From the NCBI RefSeq assembly GCF_016597785.1, contig NZ_JAENJG010000001.1, positions 558,001-622,000 of the forward strand: a stretch of 64,000 nt of DNA. Direction: 5' to 3'. Positions 30,128 through 42,037 of this stretch are shown here, one piece after another (the first letter of the stretch is position 1; every line of letters begins with the position of its first letter). The translations under genes were made by a program, and so were the position numbers. The notes beneath the pieces are model-generated. The model was not told the DNA's origin. It was given only the letters and a program-made list of their open reading frames with translations, and made no database searches. The stretch is from Leucobacter sp. L43 (GTDB taxonomy: Bacteria; Actinomycetota; Actinomycetes; Actinomycetales; Microbacteriaceae).

Positions 30128-30202
30128 GGGTTCTAATTTAGCAAAGGTTCGGGGTCGGTTCGTGTGGCCTCGCCGACCGCCGGAAGACGGCAGAATAGCA
30201 AT

Positions 30203-30991
30203 GTGACTCTTTCACCTCGTTCTCGGACCCGGCGCACCAGCGCGTGGTCGTCGCTGTGGCTGCTGACGCGGCGCGATCTCAAGGTCCGCTACGCGACGTC
30301 ACTGCTCGGGTATCTCTGGTCCATCCTCGATCCGCTGCTGATGAGCCTCATCTACTGGTTCGTCTTCACCCAGGTCTTCCAGCGAACGGTCGGTGAGCAG
30401 CCGTACATCGTCTTCCTTCTCACCGCGCTGCTGCCGTGGGTCTGGGTCAACGGCGCGATCTCAGACTCCACCCGGGCATTCCTGCGCGATGTGAAGCTCG
30501 TGCGCTCAGTCGCATTGCCGCATTGGATCTGGGTCGGCCGAATCGTCTGCTCGAAGGGCATCGAGTTCCTGTTGAGCCTGCCGGTGCTCATCGCGTTCGC
30601 GATCCTCAGCGGAGCGCCGGTCGGCTGGGGCATCCTGCTGATGCCGGTGGCCGTGCTCCTGCTCGCAGCGCTCACGCTCGGCGTCGGTTTGATCGTGGCG
30701 CCCCTCGTCGTCTTCTTCCGCGACCTGGAGCGAGCCACGAAACTCATCCTCCGAGTCCTGTTCTACGCTTCGCCCATCATCTACGGTGCCGCTGATCTGC
30801 CCGAGTTCGCCCGGCCGCTGGCTTGGCTCAACCCGCTCTCCGGCATCTTCGCGCTGTTCCGTGCCGGATTCTTCCCCGATCAGCTCGACTGGCCGCTCAT
30901 CGCCGCATCCACCGCCATGACGGTTCTCTTCCTGGGAATCGGGATCCTCGTTTTCCGCCGCGCCATCGGCGGCGTGTTGAAGGAGCTGTAA
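30203..30991 (+). CDS. TagG/Wzm-type polysaccharide ABC permease
   Basis: This is the membrane half of an exporter for lipid-linked wall glycopolymer. It has 262 residues from the GTG at 30203, chosen because CAGAAT (30191-30196) lies six bases upstream; the frame opens earlier at 30164. Six membrane segments are predicted. Family segments include LTRRDLKVRYATSLLGYLW at the N-terminus and FYASPIIYGAADLPE near residue 190. It is followed one base later by its ATPase. Neighbouring glycerophosphotransferases suggest a teichoic-acid-like substrate. Confidence 0.88.
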   Translation: MTLSPRSRTRRTSAWSSLWLLTRRDLKVRYATSLLGYLWSILDPLLMSLIYWFVFTQVFQRTVGEQPYIVFLLTALLPWVWVNGAISDSTRAFLRDVKLVRSVALPHWIWVGRIVCSKGIEFLLSLPVLIAFAILSGAPVGWGILLMPVAVLLLAALTLGVGLIVAPLVVFFRDLERATKLILRVLFYASPIIYGAADLPEFARPLAWLNPLSGIFALFRAGFFPDQLDWPLIAASTAMTVLFLGIGILVFRRAIGGVLKEL

Positions 30992-30992
30992 C

Positions 30993-31769
30993 GTGACCGC
31001 ATCGCATCTGGGCGCCCCGGCAGCCGCTCCGGCGGCCGATCGAATCATCGCCGTCGACGATCTGGGAGTGCGGTTCCGCCGCAATCGCGGCTCGCGACGA
31101 AGCTTCAAAGATCTGTTCTCCGGTCGTGCGCGGCGCGGGCGGCCGGGTGACTTCTGGGCGCTGCGCAATGTCTCGTTCGACGTGCGCGCGGGCGAAGCCA
31201 TCGGCGTGGTCGGGCGCAACGGTCAAGGTAAGTCGACGCTTCTGAAGCTGGTCGCCGGCGTGCTCTTCCCGGATGAGGGCCGCGTCGACGTGAGTGCCGG
31301 CGTCGCGCCGCTCATCGAGATCACCGGCGGCTTCGTCGGCGATCTGACCGTGCGCGACAACGTCTGGCTCACGGCCGGTCTGCACGGCCTGAGCAAGCGC
31401 ACCATCTCCGAGCGCTTCGACTCCATCATCGAGTTCGCCGGTGCGGAGGATGTGATCGACACGCCCTTCAAGCACCTGTCGAGCGGCATGAAGGTGCGCG
31501 TGGCGTTCTCGGTCATCTCGCAGCTCGATGAACCAGTGCTCCTCGTCGACGAGGTGCTCGCCGTCGGCGATAAGTCATTCCGGGCGAAGTGCTATGCCCG
31601 CATCGAGCAGATCCTCGCCGAGGGGAAGACGCTCTTCCTCGTCTCGCACAATGAGCGCGACCTCAGGCGCTTCTGCTCGCGCGGGTTGTACCTCGATCGC
31701 GGTCGGCTCGTGCTCGACGGCGACATCGAAGCCGTGCTCGACCGCTACAACGCCGACCACCCGGTCTGA
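30993..31769 (+). CDS. TagH/Wzt-type polysaccharide ABC ATPase
   Basis: This is the ATP-binding subunit pairing with the preceding permease. It has 258 residues from a GTG. Walker A GRNGQGKS, signature HLSSGMKVRVAF, Walker B LLVDEVLAVGD and the switch His in VSHNERD are all present. The FWALRNVSFDVRAGEAIGVVG start and the DLTVRDNVWLTAGLHGL segment are typical of polysaccharide exporters. The protein ends right after the nucleotide-binding domain, so it lacks the carbohydrate-binding C-terminal domain found in some Wzt and TagH proteins. Confidence 0.92.
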   Translation: MTASHLGAPAAAPAADRIIAVDDLGVRFRRNRGSRRSFKDLFSGRARRGRPGDFWALRNVSFDVRAGEAIGVVGRNGQGKSTLLKLVAGVLFPDEGRVDVSAGVAPLIEITGGFVGDLTVRDNVWLTAGLHGLSKRTISERFDSIIEFAGAEDVIDTPFKHLSSGMKVRVAFSVISQLDEPVLLVDEVLAVGDKSFRAKCYARIEQILAEGKTLFLVSHNERDLRRFCSRGLYLDRGRLVLDGDIEAVLDRYNADHPV

Positions 31770-31829: not shown

Positions 31830-33062
31830 TCAGCCGAGTCCGCGCTGCGCCCGTTCGGCATCGGCGCGCGTGAGCAGCTCGGCGATCGCGGCGTGGAACC
31901 TCTGCGTGGGGGCGCCCGGCGTCGTATCGCCGAAGTAATGCGCTGACCAGGTTCCCAGCCGCTCACGCGCGGCCTCGTCGCCGATCACCCGGTCGAGCAC
32001 CGCAGCGATATCAGGCGTATCAGCGGCCGAGAGCCACTCGCACACGCTCAGATACCCGGTTGCGTCGACTGCCGCCTCCGGAGAGACCGGCCGCGTCACC
32101 ATGAGCGGCCGCCCGGTCGCGAGGCGGTCGTAGACCATGGCCGAGATGTCGCAGATCGCGACATCGGGCAGGCTGAGCTGCCATCCGAGACGCGAGCTCG
32201 TGTCGTAGACGTGGTGAGCGGTGGGGTCTGCGCGGTTCGCAGCATCGATCATGGCGATGATCCGCGCATTCGCGGCGCCGAATTCGCTGTCGACGACCCC
32301 GCTCCTCGGATGAGGGCGGTACACGACGCGGTGCCGTCCTGTCGCGATCAGGGCCCGGACGAGTGCTTCGCCGTGCGAGGCCACCGATCCGTAGCTCGCG
32401 GCCGGCCTGTCGCCCTCCCACGTCGGCGCGTACAGCACGACGGTTCGCTCGTCTGGAGTGAAGGGCGGGGCCCCCTCCAGGTGATCCGTCTGCGGCCGCC
32501 CGATCGACATCGTTCGCGCCTCGACATCGTAATTCCAGAGCGCCCGGCTGAGTCGTTCGCGCGCGGCGTCTCCGGCTACGAACGCGAAATCGTAGGTCTG
32601 GTACTGGTTGCTCGTCATGTACATCTTGTCGCTCTCACCGTGATTGACGAAGACATGCCAGCGCTGCCCGTACCGCATCATCTGGAAATTGCGCGTGTTC
32701 TGGTTGACGTACAGGATCACGTCGAGGCGCTGCTCCTCGAGCACTCGCTCGATCTCGGTCACGCGCTGCACGAACTCGACCGCGAGTCCGCTCTCGCGCA
32801 TCAGTTGACGCGCGCCCGACGCGTTCCGCGCGAGCACGAGCACCGGCCAACGCTCCGACAGTTTCTGGAGCGGCGCATACCACTGCCGCATCTGGTAGAT
32901 GTTCACATCGCTATCGGCGAAGTACACGCCGATGGTGAAGTGCTGCTCGGGTATGGGCCCTCGCTCCTCGATCAGCTGACGCAACTGAAAGTACGCCTGA
33001 CGCCCTTTGAGCACGCGCTTGCCGAGCCGAAGCGCGCGCTTCACATCTTTCGCCAACTGCAT
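31830..33062 (-). CDS. CDP-glycerol glycerophosphotransferase-type protein
   Basis: The product is 410 residues from an ATG with TAGGCT six bases upstream (leaderless). The C-terminal two thirds have the GT-B-like fold of TagB/TagF enzymes: VNHGESDKMYMTSNQ in place of the usual W-H-G block, YAPTWEGD near residue 215, YRPHPRSG near 250, and a CDISAMVYDRLATGRP segment corresponding to the usual TDYSS. These enzymes add glycerol- or ribitol-phosphate to wall teichoic acid. The substitution of CDISA for TDYSS suggests a different donor or acceptor. There is no membrane segment. Confidence 0.82.
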   Translation of the reverse strand: MQLAKDVKRALRLGKRVLKGRQAYFQLRQLIEERGPIPEQHFTIGVYFADSDVNIYQMRQWYAPLQKLSERWPVLVLARNASGARQLMRESGLAVEFVQRVTEIERVLEEQRLDVILYVNQNTRNFQMMRYGQRWHVFVNHGESDKMYMTSNQYQTYDFAFVAGDAARERLSRALWNYDVEARTMSIGRPQTDHLEGAPPFTPDERTVVLYAPTWEGDRPAASYGSVASHGEALVRALIATGRHRVVYRPHPRSGVVDSEFGAANARIIAMIDAANRADPTAHHVYDTSSRLGWQLSLPDVAICDISAMVYDRLATGRPLMVTRPVSPEAAVDATGYLSVCEWLSAADTPDIAAVLDRVIGDEAARERLGTWSAHYFGDTTPGAPTQRFHAAIAELLTRADAERAQRGLG

Positions 33063-33139: not shown

Positions 33140-34198
33140 GTGCATCTCCCCGCCCTCCCCCCTCTCCCGGCCGTGAGCTACGTCATGCCCGTGCTGAACG
33201 AGGAGGGATTCCTGGAACGGGCGGTCCGCACGATCCTCGATCAGGACTACGCGGGCGAGAAGGAGATCGTGCTCGCGCTGGGCCCGTCGACCGACCGGAG
33301 CAACGCGATCGCGCTGTCGCTCGCGGCGGAGGACGGGCGAGTCCGCCTGGTGGAGAATCCGGAGCGCGACATTCCAGCGGGGCTCAATCGTGCGATCGCG
33401 GCGAGCCGGTACCCGATCATCGTCCGCGTCGACGCCCACTCGGAACTCACCCCCGATTACACGCGCCTCGGGGTCGAGATACTCGGCAGCCGGCACGCCG
33501 CGAATGTGGGCGGCATCATGCGCGCGGCCGGCGCGAGCGACGTGCAGCGCGCCATTGCTCGCGGCTACAACAGCCCCTACGGGCTCGGAGGCGGCGCGTA
33601 CCACGGCGATGGGGCGGCCGGGGAGGCGGAGTCGGCGTATCTCGGAATCTTCCGCCGCGAGGCCATCGATGCAGTGGGCGGGTATGACCGCGAGATACTG
33701 AGAGGAGAGGACTGGGAGCTGAATCTCAGGATCCGCAGGGCCGGCGGTCTGGTCTGGTTCTCCCCCGCGCTCGGTGTGACCTACTGGCCGCGCGCGAGCT
33801 TCGCCGACCTGGCGAGGCAGTTCTTCGCCACTGGAACATGGCGCGCGGTGCTCGTGCGCAAGTACGGTCGCGCGAACCCGTGGCGATTCTTCGCCCCGGG
33901 CGCTCTCGTACTCGGACTGACTGCAAGTACGGGCGCCCTCGTCCTGCTGACCATCGGCGTCCTGCCGTGGGCATCCGCCTGGACGGTGCTGCTGGTGCCC
34001 ATGGCCGCCTACCTGGCCGGGATCGGCGTCGCCGTCTTCCGCATCCCCGATCAGCGCGGCATCCGCGATCGGCTGCTCACCGCGACGACGCTCGTCACGA
34101 TGCATCTCAGCTGGGGCGCGGGCTTCCTGCGCGGCATCGTCTTCGGCGGCGGACGCATCTTCGGTCGTGGCCGCGTCGTGGACCGGTCGCGCGTCTAG
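33140..34198 (+). CDS. Family 2 glycosyltransferase with C-terminal membrane segments
   Basis: The product is 352 residues from a GTG with GGGAGG upstream. The N-terminal 230 residues form a GT2 domain: YVMPVLNEEGFL start, RVDAHSELTPDY metal-binding D-x-D-like motif near 97, and GEDWELNLRIRRAG near 195. Three hydrophobic segments follow (about 250-330), as in ExoA-like enzymes that elongate glycans on lipid carriers at the membrane. Its stop codon TAG shares CTAG with the stop of the convergent gene. Confidence 0.88.
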   Translation: MHLPALPPLPAVSYVMPVLNEEGFLERAVRTILDQDYAGEKEIVLALGPSTDRSNAIALSLAAEDGRVRLVENPERDIPAGLNRAIAASRYPIIVRVDAHSELTPDYTRLGVEILGSRHAANVGGIMRAAGASDVQRAIARGYNSPYGLGGGAYHGDGAAGEAESAYLGIFRREAIDAVGGYDREILRGEDWELNLRIRRAGGLVWFSPALGVTYWPRASFADLARQFFATGTWRAVLVRKYGRANPWRFFAPGALVLGLTASTGALVLLTIGVLPWASAWTVLLVPMAAYLAGIGVAVFRIPDQRGIRDRLLTATTLVTMHLSWGAGFLRGIVFGGGRIFGRGRVVDRSRV

Positions 34199-36558
34199 AG
34201 CGAGGATCGCGCGACGAGAGCGTCCACCACTCGAGATGCGGCTCGGCCGTCGTCGTACGGAGTGAAGCGCTCCCGCCATGCTGCGGCAGCCGGCTCGTAC
34301 TGCCGCAGCCATTCGGCGTCCGGTCCGTCTTCCGCGAGGGCGCGCGCATGCGAGACGATCTCTTCGCGGGCGGCGAGGAGCGGCCCCGGAGCATCGCGCT
34401 CGAAGTCGAAGGTGAAGCCTCGCTCGCGGTCGCGGTACGCGGCGAGATCGGGCACGAAGAAGAGCATCGGCGTTCGCGACACGGCGGCATCGAACATGAT
34501 GGACGAGTAATCGGTGACGAGCACGTCGGCAGCGAGGATGACGGTGGCGGCGTCGGGATGCCGGGAGGCATCGATCACGCGCGCGTCCGCTCCCCCGTAC
34601 CTCCCGAAGTCGTGGGTTCGCGTGTGCCCTCTGGCAATGACCACCCACTCATCGCCGAGTTCTTCGGCGAGGCTTCGTACGTCGAGTTCATCGACGAGGG
34701 TGACGCCTCGGTCGCGCCAGGTGGGCGCGTACACGAGCACGCGAGCGTCGGGCGGTACGCCGAGCTCGGCACGGGCGAGACGAACCGCCACCGGATTCAC
34801 CGTGTGGCCGGCGAGCGCCTGCGCGAGACTGTCGTCCCGCGGGTACCCGGTCTCGAGAATGTCGCCCCGGAAGGCGTAGCTCGTGCGGAACTGCTCGGTG
34901 GAGTGCGGGTTCTGGGAGAGCATCAGACTCCATCTGCGGCTCTCACGGAGCACGGCGATGCGTGTGCGCAGTCCCACGTCCGGACGCCCGAGCGCCAGAT
35001 GCTTGAGCATGGTGCCGTGCCAGGTCTGCAGCACGGTCTGCCCGCGCCGGCGGCGGAAGCCGTAGCGCAACCAGTCGTTGACGATCAGGAGCCGCGCGTA
35101 CCGGCGAGCCGCGAACCATTCCCTGCCGCCGACCAGCACGGGCACCGCACCCTCCGGCACATGCTGACGCTCGCTGACCACGCTCCAGTAGCGAGGCCGA
35201 TCCGGAAACCGTCGAGCGATCTCGCGATCGAGCGCGAGCGGGTTGCAACCGATCTGGCGTCCGTAGAAGCTCTCGAAGAACACGCCCTCGGGATCGATGA
35301 GTTCCACCGCCGGAGCGCGAAGTCGGGTGATCTCGCCGAGCACCCGCTGTGCCGAGCATCCATCGCGGTACGTGTGGAAGCGTTCGGCGAGCGCACGCGC
35401 TTCGCCGATGAGCGCTCGGCGCTCTCCTGGGGCCGCGAGGGCGTCCCAGGTGCGCAGCACCTCCGCCCAATCCCGCGCGACGCGTCCCGACGCGGTCACC
35501 TCGAGCGGTTCATACAGGCCACGGGTGCTGCCGTAGCGCTCAAGATCCGGAGCGAACCAGATGATGGGGCGCTCGAGCAGGGCGAAATCCAGCGCGAGCG
35601 ACGAGTAGTCGGTGATCACGGCATCGAACGCTCCGAGCATCGGCGTGATGTCGCGCAGCAGTTCTGCACCGAGGGCGTGCACGCGGTCGCCGAGGAGCGC
35701 GTCGTACGCTCCTCCGCCGAGCGGGTGCGAGCGCACGACGAGATGCGCCCCGGTGCGCGCGCACGCCTCGCGGATGGCCCGCGCCTCCGCGTCATTCGGA
35801 ATAGCGGGGTCAGGATCGCCGTCCCGCCAGGTCGGCGCGTAGAGCACCAGCGCATCCGACTCGGCGATGCGAGCGCCCGCCTGTTCAAGAATCGACCGCA
35901 CGGCTGCGCGAGCCTGGGCCCCGCCATCGGTCTCTGAGGCTTGCCGTGCGAGCGCGTCGTCGCGCGGATCCCCCAGCACGCGCACCTTGCCGGGAGCCAC
36001 TCGAAAGGCCGAGCGAAGGCGTTCGGCCGCGAGGGGCGATCCCGCGACGTAGAGGTCCACCTGCCGGGATCCGGCGCGGTACATCCGTCGCAGCAGCGCG
36101 CGGATCAGCGGCGGACCTGCCACCTTCGTGGTGACGGGCGAATCGAAGTGGAGGCGCTTGAGCGGGGCGCCGTGCCACAGCTGCACGATGAAGCCTCCGG
36201 CGACACCGAAGCGGTTCACATCGCCCAACCCGTGGGTGACGACGATGTGACCGGCCCGCAGCGTCGTCCAGAAGCCAGCCCGGCCGCGCCGCTCCACCGC
36301 CGTGAACCCCTCGGCGCGCGCACGGTCCGCTTCATCCGCGTCGGCGACGAGCCAGGCGATCTCGGCTTCCGGCTGCTCGATGCGCAGCCGACGCGCGACG
36401 GCGAGCGCACCCTCCCCGACTCCCGCTCCGCTGCCGAATGCCCAGCGGGAACGGACGCGAGGGACGAACCACGAGAGGACCAACGACAGCAGGTACTTCG
36501 GGAGGGCGAGGAGCTTCGAGAGGTTGCCGCTCGCGAAGTCGAATCCGGCGGTACTCAT
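34195..36558 (-). CDS. Two-domain glycerophosphotransferase (TagF-like, duplicated)
   Basis: The product is 787 residues from the ATG at 36558; TACAGT seven bases upstream suggests a leaderless mRNA. It contains two consecutive copies of the CDP-glycerol glycerophosphotransferase fold. Copy 1 (about 15-390) has LWHGAPLKRLHFD, YAPTWRDGD, RSHPLGG and ITDYSSLALDFA. Copy 2 (about 415-787) has TWHGTMLKHLALG, YAPTWRDRG, ARGHTRTHD and VTDYSSIMFDAA. Single-domain TagB and TagF proteins prime or polymerise teichoic acid. A fused pair could combine two transfer steps. The copies are diverged, so the duplication is old. Confidence 0.9.
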   Translation of the reverse strand: MSTAGFDFASGNLSKLLALPKYLLSLVLSWFVPRVRSRWAFGSGAGVGEGALAVARRLRIEQPEAEIAWLVADADEADRARAEGFTAVERRGRAGFWTTLRAGHIVVTHGLGDVNRFGVAGGFIVQLWHGAPLKRLHFDSPVTTKVAGPPLIRALLRRMYRAGSRQVDLYVAGSPLAAERLRSAFRVAPGKVRVLGDPRDDALARQASETDGGAQARAAVRSILEQAGARIAESDALVLYAPTWRDGDPDPAIPNDAEARAIREACARTGAHLVVRSHPLGGGAYDALLGDRVHALGAELLRDITPMLGAFDAVITDYSSLALDFALLERPIIWFAPDLERYGSTRGLYEPLEVTASGRVARDWAEVLRTWDALAAPGERRALIGEARALAERFHTYRDGCSAQRVLGEITRLRAPAVELIDPEGVFFESFYGRQIGCNPLALDREIARRFPDRPRYWSVVSERQHVPEGAVPVLVGGREWFAARRYARLLIVNDWLRYGFRRRRGQTVLQTWHGTMLKHLALGRPDVGLRTRIAVLRESRRWSLMLSQNPHSTEQFRTSYAFRGDILETGYPRDDSLAQALAGHTVNPVAVRLARAELGVPPDARVLVYAPTWRDRGVTLVDELDVRSLAEELGDEWVVIARGHTRTHDFGRYGGADARVIDASRHPDAATVILAADVLVTDYSSIMFDAAVSRTPMLFFVPDLAAYRDRERGFTFDFERDAPGPLLAAREEIVSHARALAEDGPDAEWLRQYEPAAAAWRERFTPYDDGRAASRVVDALVARSSL

Positions 36559-36625
36559 CGGTATTACTGTAGGGCATTCCCGCTGGGCGAACCGGCATCT
36601 GCAGCGGCTCCGCATGCACGTCGAA

Positions 36626-38492: not shown

Positions 38493-41400
38493 TCACTCTC
38501 CCGAGGACGCCATATCGCGGCACTCTCGGAAGACGATCGGGCCGCGCCGGTGTCGGCGTACGCCCCAGGCCAGCGCGGCCCCGCCGAGGAGCAGGAGCGC
38601 GCCTCCCCCGGCGATCCACGCGGCCGCGGCTCCCTCTCCCGTCGTAGCGAGAGCGGGCGCCGCACCCACCGGGCGGACCTCGAAGTCCTCGCTCGGAGCA
38701 CCGCAGGCGCCCTTCGCCACCACGTGCTCCTTCCCGGCCTCGATCATGACGAGGGTCTCGACGTAGCCGCCGAGTCCGACATGCTCGGGACGGGTGAGCA
38801 CACTCCTCGATCGGTACGTTCCCGGGCCGTCGACCACGACGCCCGCAGCGTCGCCGAGTTCGGCGAGTTCGTGCTCCGGCGAGCATACGAGCGCGCCGTG
38901 CGCATCTCGCCCGTACGCGCTGAAACGCACCCGTAATTCGATGCCATCGCGCTGCACGATGGGGCCGCCGACGAACGCCCGGTCGAACATCGGCTGCCCG
39001 ACCTCCACCGAGCCGGCCGAAACCGTGCGCACGGTCGGCGCCTGCACCGTGGTCGTCTCCTCTGGCATCCCGCATGCTCCGCGGTGCAGCTCTCGCTCCG
39101 CCCCGTTCTCCCACTGCGACAGCGTCTCCACCCACCAGATGGTGTCGCCATATTCGGGGAGCGCCGTGATCTCCGGCGAACGAACCGTGCCGGGCTCGGT
39201 GACGCTGACTGGATCGAGCGTGAAGAGGAGGTTGTCGTCCGTGCAGTGCGCCGCGTCCGTTCCCGTGGCCGACGCCTCGCCCCGATACCCGCGGAAGACG
39301 ACGCGGTGCTCCAAGCCTGCACGCTCTGCGAGGACACCGGTGATCGTCGCCTCATCGCTGATGAGGTCGCCGATCGCGGAGAACGCCGCCGCGTTCGTGG
39401 TCACCTCCGGTGTCGTGATGTTCGTCGTCTCGCTGGCGATGCCGCACTCGCCCGTGTGCATTGCCACTCGAGCGTCGCCCTGGATGAGCCACAGCGTTTC
39501 GACCCACCAGACCGCGCCGACCCAGTCCGACTGTGCGACGACGCTCGGGGAGACGATCTCGCCCGGGCCCGTCACCGGCACGGCCGATGTCTCGAACAGG
39601 AGATTCTCTCGTGTGCACACGGCTCGCCCGCCCCCTTCGTCCGGAGCCGGCTCCTTCGCTACCCCGTCACCCGCGTCTCGCGGTGCGGTCCCCGCGCCGT
39701 ATCCGGCGAACGTCAGTTCCCACCGAGCGCCGGCGTTCTCCGCGAGCGCCCCCGATACCACCGCGGTGTCGGAGATCTCGGCGCCGACGGGAGCGGTTTC
39801 CGTCGCCAGGGTCTCGACCGACGGGCGCCCGATCGTCGTGGTCTCATTGGCAAGACCGCATTCGCCGCGGTGCAGCGTGCGGGGCCCATCCGGGGTCTCG
39901 AGGTACAGCGTCTCGATCCACCAGACCGTCGTGCCATGCTCAGGTCGCGCGGTGAAGCCGGGCGAACGCAGGTCGCCGGTCCCGGTGACGGGAATCTTCT
40001 CGGAACGAAAGATGATGTTCTCGGCGCTGCAGCTCGGTTCGACTGCCGTGCGCACCTCCGGGGTGTCCTCGATCGCGCCTTCCGGAGCGCGGTAGGCCTC
40101 GAAGCGCATCGAGTACGTCGCGCGTTCCGCAAGAGCGCCGGACACCGTGGCCACGTCGTAGAGCTCGTCGCCGAGCGCCGCTTCCGAGAGCGCCTGCGTG
40201 ACGACGGCCGGCTGATCGATCCTGGTCGTCTCGTTGCTCAGCCCGCACTCGCCCTCGTGCACGGTCTTGCCGTGCGACACGACGCGCTCGACCCAGTGGA
40301 TCGTGCCTCCGGATCGCACCTGCGTCTCGGGCGACGCGTACGCTCCCGGCCCCGGAACGTCAATGCCGGATGCGCGGTGGACGGGTTGTGCGAGACAGCG
40401 TTCCTCCGCGGAGAGCGATTCGAGTTCGGCTTCGCTCCAGGTCTGCGGATCGCGCCGTTGCTCCAGCACGGGGTCGCGACCGCGCAGAGGCACGGGCGCC
40501 CCCGAGCTGTCGAGCACCGGAGTGCCGTCCTCCGCCAGCTCGAGCACGGGGTATGGAGTGCCGTCTGCGGCAACACCCGCCGTCGGCGCACCATTCTCGT
40601 CGGCCACGGGAATGCGGTTCCCCGCTTCATCGAGCAGCGGTTCTCCTGCGGCATCCGCCCACCACTCCTCCCAGAGCAGCGCTCCGGTTGCAAGGTCTTC
40701 CGCTTGCGCCTCATACGGATCGCCCAGTACCGGCTCCCAGTGCTCGTCGAACTTCTGCGCCCCGGCGCTCGGCTCCAGGTACGCCGTGAAGTCGGCGACC
40801 GCGTCCGGCCACATCTCCAGGGTGCTGTCCGGCGTCTCTCGAACGATCAGTCGATCCAGCATGGTGCCCCCTACCGTGGCGTCCGGCTGCGCCTGAGAGG
40901 ACGCGATCGGTGGGGCCGGGGGCGCAGGAACGTCCTGATGCACGCTGGGAAAGCGACCTCCCAAGTCCGCCGATTTCGAACTGCCCGTGGCGACTGCGAT
41001 TCGCTGCCCACTGGCTCCCGAGGCGGTCGCGGTGTCGTGGACGTCGAGCACCGCATCCCACCCGGCCGTGCCTCTGGCCTCCCAGGAGCCCCCGAGCGTG
41101 ATGCGACGCGCACCAGGGTCTGCCTGGACGTAGCGAGCCGAAGCCTCGGTACTCGGAACTTGGAGCGTCGCAGCATCATTGCGCACGAACGTGCCGCCAG
41201 TGACGCTGAGCGTCGTGGTGCCCTTCGGGTACGCGACCCGGTAGCGGCCCTGCTTTCCGCCGGGGTCAGGAGTCACCTGCAACTCCCCCGTGACGGGCTT
41301 CGCAGCCACCGGCGGTTTCGCATTCGCCTTCGCGTCGGCATAGAGCCGGTCGGATTCCGCGATGAGGTCCCGGCCACGGGCTGAGCTCAGCAGCACACCG

Positions 41401-41912
41401 ATCTTCTGGTCGAGGGCCGGATTGCCCGCGGCGAAGTTCTCGCGCATGCGCCAGATCGTCAGCTGCACCGCAGCAGCGGTCCACGCATCCCCAGTCTGAC
41501 CGTGACGGTCCATGAGGTAGTTCATCTGCCTCATGCCGTGTTCGTCATCCCACGCCGGGAACATCCCGGCGATACCCGGCAGATACGGGAGTCGCCCGAG
41601 TGAGGCGATGTACCCCGACGGTTCGTGGCGACCGACCTCGATGCAGTACGCGCGAGTACCGTTCGGCATGACGAAGTTCGAGATCGTCAATCCACCGGCG
41701 AACGAGACTTCTTCTCCTCGTGATAGCGCCTGAGCGGGAGTCGGCGGCGCGAAAAGGGCGGCGCTGAGCGCGAGGGCGGCGACGACGAGACCTGCGAGCG
41801 CCATCCCGGGCACCGATCGCGCCACTCGTACCGTCTGCATCTTTCGCACGGTGTGCGAATCCCGAGCGCGTCTCCTTCGCCACCCTCCGTTCAGCCAGTT
41901 CACCTTGGTCAT
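38493..41912 (-). CDS. Surface protein with thioester-domain signature, five Cys modules and LATTG anchor
   Basis: The product is 1139 residues from the ATG at 41912, which has AAAGGAG upstream; an in-frame TTG two codons earlier is too close to that site. A signal peptide ends near residue 62 (PAQA). The next domain has YCIEV (Cys90) and AVQLTIW (Gln150), matching the Cys and Q-x-x-hydrophobic-W motifs of Gram-positive thioester domains, in which Cys and Gln form a covalent internal bond used for adhesion. Residues about 505-1080 hold five related modules, each with two cysteines (C-x-x-E/D-N-hydrophobic start and a G-E/A-C-G-x-x-x-E-T-T end, W-V/I-E-T-L between). LATTG (1088-1092), a membrane segment and RRHRR form a sortase-E-type signal. 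No sortase gene lies in this window. Confidence 0.85.
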   Translation of the reverse strand: MTKVNWLNGGWRRRRARDSHTVRKMQTVRVARSVPGMALAGLVVAALALSAALFAPPTPAQALSRGEEVSFAGGLTISNFVMPNGTRAYCIEVGRHEPSGYIASLGRLPYLPGIAGMFPAWDDEHGMRQMNYLMDRHGQTGDAWTAAAVQLTIWRMRENFAAGNPALDQKIGVLLSSARGRDLIAESDRLYADAKANAKPPVAAKPVTGELQVTPDPGGKQGRYRVAYPKGTTTLSVTGGTFVRNDAATLQVPSTEASARYVQADPGARRITLGGSWEARGTAGWDAVLDVHDTATASGASGQRIAVATGSSKSADLGGRFPSVHQDVPAPPAPPIASSQAQPDATVGGTMLDRLIVRETPDSTLEMWPDAVADFTAYLEPSAGAQKFDEHWEPVLGDPYEAQAEDLATGALLWEEWWADAAGEPLLDEAGNRIPVADENGAPTAGVAADGTPYPVLELAEDGTPVLDSSGAPVPLRGRDPVLEQRRDPQTWSEAELESLSAEERCLAQPVHRASGIDVPGPGAYASPETQVRSGGTIHWVERVVSHGKTVHEGECGLSNETTRIDQPAVVTQALSEAALGDELYDVATVSGALAERATYSMRFEAYRAPEGAIEDTPEVRTAVEPSCSAENIIFRSEKIPVTGTGDLRSPGFTARPEHGTTVWWIETLYLETPDGPRTLHRGECGLANETTTIGRPSVETLATETAPVGAEISDTAVVSGALAENAGARWELTFAGYGAGTAPRDAGDGVAKEPAPDEGGGRAVCTRENLLFETSAVPVTGPGEIVSPSVVAQSDWVGAVWWVETLWLIQGDARVAMHTGECGIASETTNITTPEVTTNAAAFSAIGDLISDEATITGVLAERAGLEHRVVFRGYRGEASATGTDAAHCTDDNLLFTLDPVSVTEPGTVRSPEITALPEYGDTIWWVETLSQWENGAERELHRGACGMPEETTTVQAPTVRTVSAGSVEVGQPMFDRAFVGGPIVQRDGIELRVRFSAYGRDAHGALVCSPEHELAELGDAAGVVVDGPGTYRSRSVLTRPEHVGLGGYVETLVMIEAGKEHVVAKGACGAPSEDFEVRPVGAAPALATTGEGAAAAWIAGGGALLLLGGAALAWGVRRHRRGPIVFRECRDMASSGE

Positions 41913-42037
41913 GCCCAACTCCTTTCGACACCGCGATCACGTGCGGACGACTCGTGAAACGGAGCGTCCTGCAGCGATCGTGGCCTGGAGAGCAGGTACG
42001 GCTCGGGAGCTCTCCACACCCACCGGGCTCGCGAGAA

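Follow-up and report, generated by a model that had tools for sequence, protein, structure and literature searches.

In the Discussion of PMC11666461, enzymes of family PF04464 are presented as acting in sequence, with TagB and TarF as examples alongside TagF. For TagF, the same source gives H444 as the likely base and H584 as binding pyrophosphate, and section 11 of PMC10299916 gives the residue at position 447 of TagF as Pro in glycerol-phosphate and Gly in ribitol-phosphate transferases. Leucobacter sp. L43 (Microbacteriaceae) encodes a protein that unites two such domains in a single chain. Its gene lies in a window of 64,000 nucleotides (contig NZ_JAENJG010000001.1, positions 558,001 to 622,000, forward strand), and the coordinates of the listed features are positions in this window. 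In the open-access literature, no paper was found that ties a Microbacteriaceae wall polymer to its genes, and among the articles listed on TagF-type enzymes (tandem, fused or from actinobacteria), PF04464, Leucobacter and Microbacteriaceae, no title or abstract opening matched this protein.

Two PF04464 domains with conserved active sites

34195-36558, minus strand: fused two-domain PF04464 glycerophosphotransferase of 787 residues (open reading frame; Pfam; model with a predicted local distance difference test score, pLDDT, of 89.9 and a predicted template modelling score, pTM, of 0.88)
35326-36558, minus strand: N half, residues 1-411, with a PF04464 domain at residues 45-410 (162.6 bits; aligned with TarL 8va1_A 188-561)
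34198-35325, minus strand: C half, residues 412-787, with a TagF-type PF04464 domain at residues 420-781 (268.9 bits; aligned with TagF 3l7k_D)
36172-36174, minus strand: N-half H129 (WHG), equivalent to TagF H444, the proposed base (85 of 85 rows; invariant in alignment A1)
35725-35727, minus strand: N-half H278 (RSHP), equivalent to TagF H584 (85 of 85 rows; invariant in alignment A1)
35017-35019, minus strand: C-half H514 (WHG), equivalent to TagF H444 (79 of 79 rows; invariant in alignment A1)
34624-34626, minus strand: C-half H645 (RGHT), equivalent to TagF H584 (79 of 79 rows; invariant in alignment A1)

The gene extends from an ATG at 36558 to a stop codon at 34195-34197. An alternative in-frame ATG at 36615 would yield 806 residues, but the shorter product is favoured because most Leucobacter homologues align from its residue 1 or 2; among named relatives, that of L. 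chromiiresistens has 79% identity. The preliminary description of this DNA, made from the letters alone, had placed two TagF-like domains in one chain at this position, and both halves, scored separately, are indeed far above the PF04464 gathering cut-off of 22.1 bits (E values of 1.7e-47 for the N half and 8.3e-80 for the C half, where the Pfam match covers residues 9-370 of the isolated half). The WHG, YAPTWRD, second-His (RSHP or RGHT) and TDYSS motifs that it listed are likewise present in both halves. In a PDB sequence search, the best match of the whole chain was TagF, over the C half (E 1.6e-45, 30% identity). The N half alone matched TagF (E 3.4e-16), TarL (6.7e-13) and Cps3D (3.2e-8), and scored higher with TagF (62.5 bits) than with TarL (51.6 bits).

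The AlphaFold2 model of the chain, computed from 27 aligned sequences, contains two GT-B folds, the fold expected of PF04464, which is also evident from the structural alignments to TagF and TarL. With VIA-align, the C half superimposes on TagF 3l7k_D over 349 residues (Z 38.0, root-mean-square deviation 2.7 A) and the N half on TarL 8va1_A over 351 residues (Z 31.5, 3.4 A).

The conservation of the active sites was assessed with 102 N-half and 97 C-half matches that exceeded 150 bits and covered most of a half. After merging of identical strings and alignment with TagF, 85 N rows and 79 C rows were obtained, many of them closely related and with the window protein represented twice in each set. 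In all rows of both sets, the Arg of the YPR motif is unchanged, as are the residues corresponding to R582, T621, D622, S624, S625 and D629 of TagF. Neither catalytic His, whose loss in one half had been named at the outset as a result that would speak against two intact sites, has been lost in any row; the conservation of both sites in every aligned row makes two activities in one chain likely, as originally proposed. A degenerate second half is ruled out by the same conservation of catalytic residues.

Non-catalytic scaffold or acceptor-binding halves are known among fused enzymes generally, and the halves do differ at secondary positions, such as that of TagF T446, where 83 of the 85 N rows have Ala, Ile or Val. 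Nevertheless, the retention of both His, R582, T621, D622, S624, S625 and D629 in every row of both halves makes it very improbable that one of them has such a role here.

Origin and distribution of the fused protein

The two halves are not recent copies of each other. Only 95 of 366 aligned residues (26%) are identical between them. Two consecutive, separate genes of a Microbacterium are nearer: identity is 45% (180 of 401 residues) between the N half and one of them, and 51% (177 of 345) between the C half and the other. In a tree of 63 rows, taken from 27 picked loci, the window and reference sequences, 28 N rows form one group and 26 C rows another (support 100/100 with nine ungrouped rows set aside; the N fork itself has 93/97). 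TagF clusters with the C rows and other TagF-like domains (branch support 99/94); row own912, which has a very long branch, was left out of the interpretation. Fusion or fission requires at least two changes on this tree if judged by the C rows and at least three if judged by the N rows. A recent internal duplication is ruled out by the tree groups and the identities. The halves look like anciently diverged paralogues that were brought together by the fusion of adjacent genes, which makes "duplicated", the term used in the preliminary description, the wrong word; in Microbacterium and other relatives, the counterparts are adjacent genes.

Among 150 genomes of the family, 78 had any match, with up to six candidates scored per genome. 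The pair is a short-link fusion in eight genomes and a single frame with a longer insert in 22; in a further 12, it occupies two adjacent frames. These 42 genomes have both halves in clean frames; G009, where both halves lie in broken frames, was left out of this set. In single-frame loci, the distance between reference points in the two halves is either 14-27 or 153-225 residues, with nothing intermediate. The short-link set comprises Leucobacter (14-15 residues), near genera and one Brevibacterium. The insert, which appears beta-rich by eye, is present upstream of the C half also where the latter is a separate gene.

Within the genus Leucobacter, the fused protein has a match in 53 of 54 genomes; both halves are in one frame in 45 of them, and the other eight have partial, contig-end-cut or broken frames. 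A sample of 296 genomes from the phylum (up to three candidates scored per genome, E up to 1e-20) yielded 16 genomes with a match; outside the family, only G285, a member of the same order, has a full-length homolog (46% identity, frame of 786 residues), and the other matches comprise the C half alone. Relatives in 55 plasmid records all have less than 60% identity.

Three loci deserve separate mention. In Leucobacter coleopterorum, the fused gene is spread over four frames and the neighbouring gene for the 410-residue PF04464 homolog over two, which may reflect pseudogenes or sequencing errors. A contig from a metagenome-assembled genome labelled 'Acidobacteria' carries N and C halves that fall among Microbacteriaceae rows of the tree and is possibly misbinned. 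Brevibacterium sp. 68QC2CO has a short-link copy with 54% identity in the best segment but in a different neighbourhood, a case of possible horizontal transfer.

Proposed function and donor supply

On balance, we lean towards a polyol-phosphate transferase with two active sites that serves the synthesis of a teichoic-acid-like wall polymer, in which the N half primes or makes a different transfer, the C half extends, and both use cytidine diphosphate (CDP)-glycerol. A single TagD would make CDP-glycerol for both sites. The N half would prime a lipid-linked acceptor with glycerol phosphate, or modify it by a transfer of another chemical kind, and hand its product to the C half within the same chain; the TagF-type C half would then lengthen the chain, and a pair of ATP-binding cassette (ABC) proteins would export the polymer. 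A primer in the N half and a polymerase in the C half would be a plausible assignment. In support of the proposed function, the fused protein has been kept through most of Leucobacter, and the locus contains a GT2 glycosyltransferase and a third PF04464 protein; a TagGH-like exporter adjoins it in a minority of relatives.

The genome of strain L43 has only one TagD above cut-off (TIGR01518, 176 bits versus 165.4; C1:1913124), and the same is encoded above cut-off in 50 of 54 Leucobacter genomes. Lower matches in the same genome (40.9 and 36.1 bits) lie in frames that look HldE-like by eye and were set aside. At the position of TagF P447, all 85 N rows carry Pro, the residue that PMC10299916 associates with glycerol-phosphate transferases; of the 79 C rows, 61 carry Met and 18 Pro. 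The Gly that would mark a ribitol enzyme of the CroT type occurs in none of the 85 N or 79 C rows. Because TagD is present and this position is Pro or Met but never Gly, we infer that both sites use CDP-glycerol from the single TagD.

CDP-ribitol, which had been considered as a donor at the outset, is disfavoured: neither half has the ribitol-type Gly, TagD is present, and the IspD/TarI family is represented by only two matches, the first full-length (197 bits) and the second partial (42 bits). It is also unlikely that the halves differ in donor, with CDP-glycerol at one site and a second CDP-alditol, for instance CDP-ribitol, at the other. The difference between Met (C half) and Pro (N half) in the donor pocket and the alignment of the N half with TarL would agree with two donors, but related C halves carry both Pro and Met, Gly is absent from both sets of rows, and the genome offers only the one TagD above cut-off and the IspD-family matches already mentioned.

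Family-level scores do not assign the halves to separate steps. The best NCBIfam model for both is TarF (NF041712; 68.1 bits for the N half, 186.3 for the C half and 249.9 for the whole chain), with both halves far below its curated cut-off of 550; the scores with the TarB primase (NF041711; 28.8 and 50.8 bits for N and C, cut-off 500) and the TarL ribitol polymerase (NF041713; 48.4 and 40.5 bits, cut-off 1000) are also below their thresholds. An identification of the N half as TagB by family score therefore fails.

Several observations weigh against the proposed function. NCBIfam does not separate primase from polymerase, with TarF on top for both halves. The ribitol enzyme TarL has the highest Z among the structures aligned to the N half alone, in a list whose TagF rows are mainly C-half alignments, so that its Z values do not rank TagF against TarL for the N half. 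The C half of the window protein carries Met where TagF has Pro447. TagD and the locus are 1.3 Mb apart, and the product of TagD could instead serve two further PF04464 proteins of the genome, which are fused to glycosyltransferase domains. Three genomes (G156, G182 and G193) encode the fused protein at least in part but gave no match to TagD; their completeness is 100, 92 and 80%, in about 90, 450 and 430 contigs, respectively, and only G182 has the protein whole. Finally, no TagA/WecG-family gene (PF03808) was found in the genome of strain L43 at E 0.001, in a search that was positive in B. subtilis and six others, so that the usual linkage unit is absent from the pathway.

The supply of the donor shows a pronounced split across the family. 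TagD (TIGR01518, E up to 1e-30) was found in nine of the 150 genomes, namely the eight with short fusions and G062. In the 42 clean-frame genomes, it accompanies all eight short fusions but none of the 34 longer-insert or split pairs. The reverse holds for a MobA-like gene, represented by a protein of 232 residues encoded near the pair in Microbacterium (L041:14324-15022, minus strand; PF12804, 57.8 bits), which is present with 34 of 34 longer-insert or split pairs and none of the eight short fusions. It occurs in 109 of the 150 genomes, never together with TagD, and is absent from all 54 Leucobacter genomes, although the same query matches elsewhere. In 31 of the 34 genomes, the MobA-like gene and the pair share a contig and are less than 20 kb apart; the exceptions are G118 (27 kb away), G066 (other contig) and G106 (more than 1 Mb away). 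In three small genomes (G067, G010 and G092), a lone C-like domain lies within about 50 bases of the MobA-like gene. If kinship is ignored, the chance of finding a supplier in all 42 pair genomes is 5.8e-6, and that of the split between 8 and 34 genomes is 8.5e-9.

CpgD, which makes CDP-glycerate, is a cytidylyltransferase of the COG1213 type that has no homology to TagD, as described in the relevant part of PMC12275187, and thus provides a precedent for a nucleotidyltransferase unrelated to TagD in CDP-linked supply. About even odds can be given to the view that, in Microbacteriaceae, the pair depends on one or the other of two nucleotidyltransferases that are unrelated: in most cases a clustered MobA-like PF12804 enzyme, which would be an unrecognised CDP-alditol synthase, but in the lineage of Leucobacter TagD, which would have replaced it around the insert-less fusion, with CDP-glycerol kept or the donor switched. 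The short fusions present in the tree form one clade. Because the eight apparently belong to a single clade, the number of independent events is small, and kinship explains much of the supplier pattern. Independent support is thinner: G199, the sole Leucobacter without the fused protein, is also without TagD, and G005 has neither the pair nor TagD, whereas its congener G088 has both. An argument against an exchange of suppliers is the presence of the MobA-like gene in 75 genomes beyond the 34 (including G009 and genomes with a single half), which means that it is not specific to the pair; G156, G182 and G193, with fused protein but no TagD match, also speak against it. The exchange is testable and, if it is real, MobA-like nucleotidyltransferases could be an alternative source of CDP-glycerol or other CDP-alditols in a large group of actinobacteria.

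G062, the ninth genome with TagD, has neither the pair nor the MobA-like gene; its only match is weak (30% identity, frame of 394 residues).

Neighbouring genes and relation to known polymerases

The neighbourhood was surveyed by tblastn (E 1e-15) in 51 loci, several of which are shortened by contig ends.

33140-34198, plus strand: GT2 glycosyltransferase (PF00535, 71.8 bits), convergent with the fused gene with a 4-base 3' overlap; relatives in 42 of 51 loci
31830-33062, minus strand: single-domain PF04464 homolog of 410 residues with an xDISA motif (25.4 bits; pLDDT 85.2); in 29 of 51 loci
30164-30991, plus strand: ABC-2 permease (PF01061, 64.3 bits), possibly a TagG-like subunit of a polymer exporter; in 14 of 51 loci
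30993-31769, plus strand: TagH-like ABC ATPase; the highest-scoring NCBIfam models describe teichoic acid export ATPases (179.5 and 148.4 bits, short of the respective cut-offs of 538 and 320)

Among NCBIfam models, the permease scores best with that of a galactan exporter permease, but its 66.8 bits do not reach the cut-off. Relatives of an HtrA gene are present in 42 of the 51 loci. In five Leucobacter loci (L011, L012, L015, L019 and L036), tblastn detected none of the GT2 enzyme, the 410-residue protein and TagGH.

The frequent proximity of a GT2 glycosyltransferase bears on another possible function, in which the two sites would take turns in each repeat of a heteropolymer and transfer glycerol phosphate onto two different acceptor ends (e.g., a sugar and glycerol), in the manner of the Cps3D/Bcs3 dyads. 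The strict conservation of both sites and the similar branching of N and C rows, as judged by eye, are compatible with such an alternating polymerase, and multi-domain polymerases with alternating sites are known (Discussion of PMC11666461; parts of PMC10299916). Against it stand the encoding of the glycosyltransferase as a protein of its own and the branch that the C half shares with the homopolymer enzyme TagF; this possibility is regarded as less likely.

The 410-residue homolog is a weak member of PF04464, with a score that nevertheless exceeds the cut-off. The replacement of TDYSS by CDISA noted in the preliminary description is real and extends to 24 homologs as xDISA, where the first residue is C, V or T and one row has V for I. 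H141, H251, D305, S307 and A308 are invariant in all 24 sequences. The joint alignment with TagF misplaced the HG motif of this protein (Y and a gap at the columns of H444-G445), so its own family alignment was used, and its row is not part of the N and C conservation counts. The best Foldseek matches of its model are UDP-N-acetylglucosamine (UDP-GlcNAc) 2-epimerases and TagF, with a template modelling (TM) score of about 0.5. A different (third) specificity for donor or acceptor, as suggested earlier, is plausible because all 24 rows have Ala where TDYSS has its second Ser.

Other regions of the genome also encode candidate surface components. At 38493-41918 of the window (minus strand), a repeat protein of 1141 residues without Pfam or NCBIfam match ends in a LATTG-like C-terminus, presumably a sortase-type motif, and a hydrophobic tail. 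A second surface-polymer region on contig C3 (400-440 kb) comprises PF04464 domains fused to glycosyltransferase domains (1252 and 881 residues), along with two proteins that contain polysaccharide pyruvyl transferase domains. On contig C2 (around 251-255 kb), two HldE-like frames and a heptosyltransferase-like frame, all assigned by eye, hint at a heptose pathway in a Gram-positive bacterium.

The fused synthase, matched in 53 of 54 Leucobacter genomes, provides one point of entry to a pathway without the TagA step known from textbooks, and makes the coupling of primer and polymerase in one chain testable.

Compared with known systems, the protein joins two enzymes of known kind and probably has a two-step function. 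Like the poly(glycerol phosphate) polymerase TagF of S. epidermidis (PDB 3l7i-m), it has PF04464 domains with a GT-B fold, a WHG motif and a second His, and its C half aligns with TagF at Z 38.0 and 30% identity. By contrast, the 729-residue chain of TagF has a single catalytic domain (matched at 350-712), whereas in the fused protein a second PF04464 domain precedes it. The N half resembles the ribitol-phosphate polymerase TarL (PDB 8va1) over 351 residues at Z 31.5, but the fused protein is without the ribitol-type Gly in the donor pocket, and its 48.4 bits are far from the TarL cut-off of 1000. The capsule polymerases Cps3D and Bcs3 also have a TagF-like domain joined to other catalytic domains in one chain; in the accounts consulted in part, however, the partners are glycosyltransferase, phosphatase or ribosyltransferase domains and not a second PF04464 domain. 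A further comparison is with the primase TagB and its partner TagF or TarF, PF04464 enzymes that, according to the Discussion of PMC11666461, work in sequence on one polymer; they are separate proteins there but fused here, and neither half reaches the TarB cut-off.

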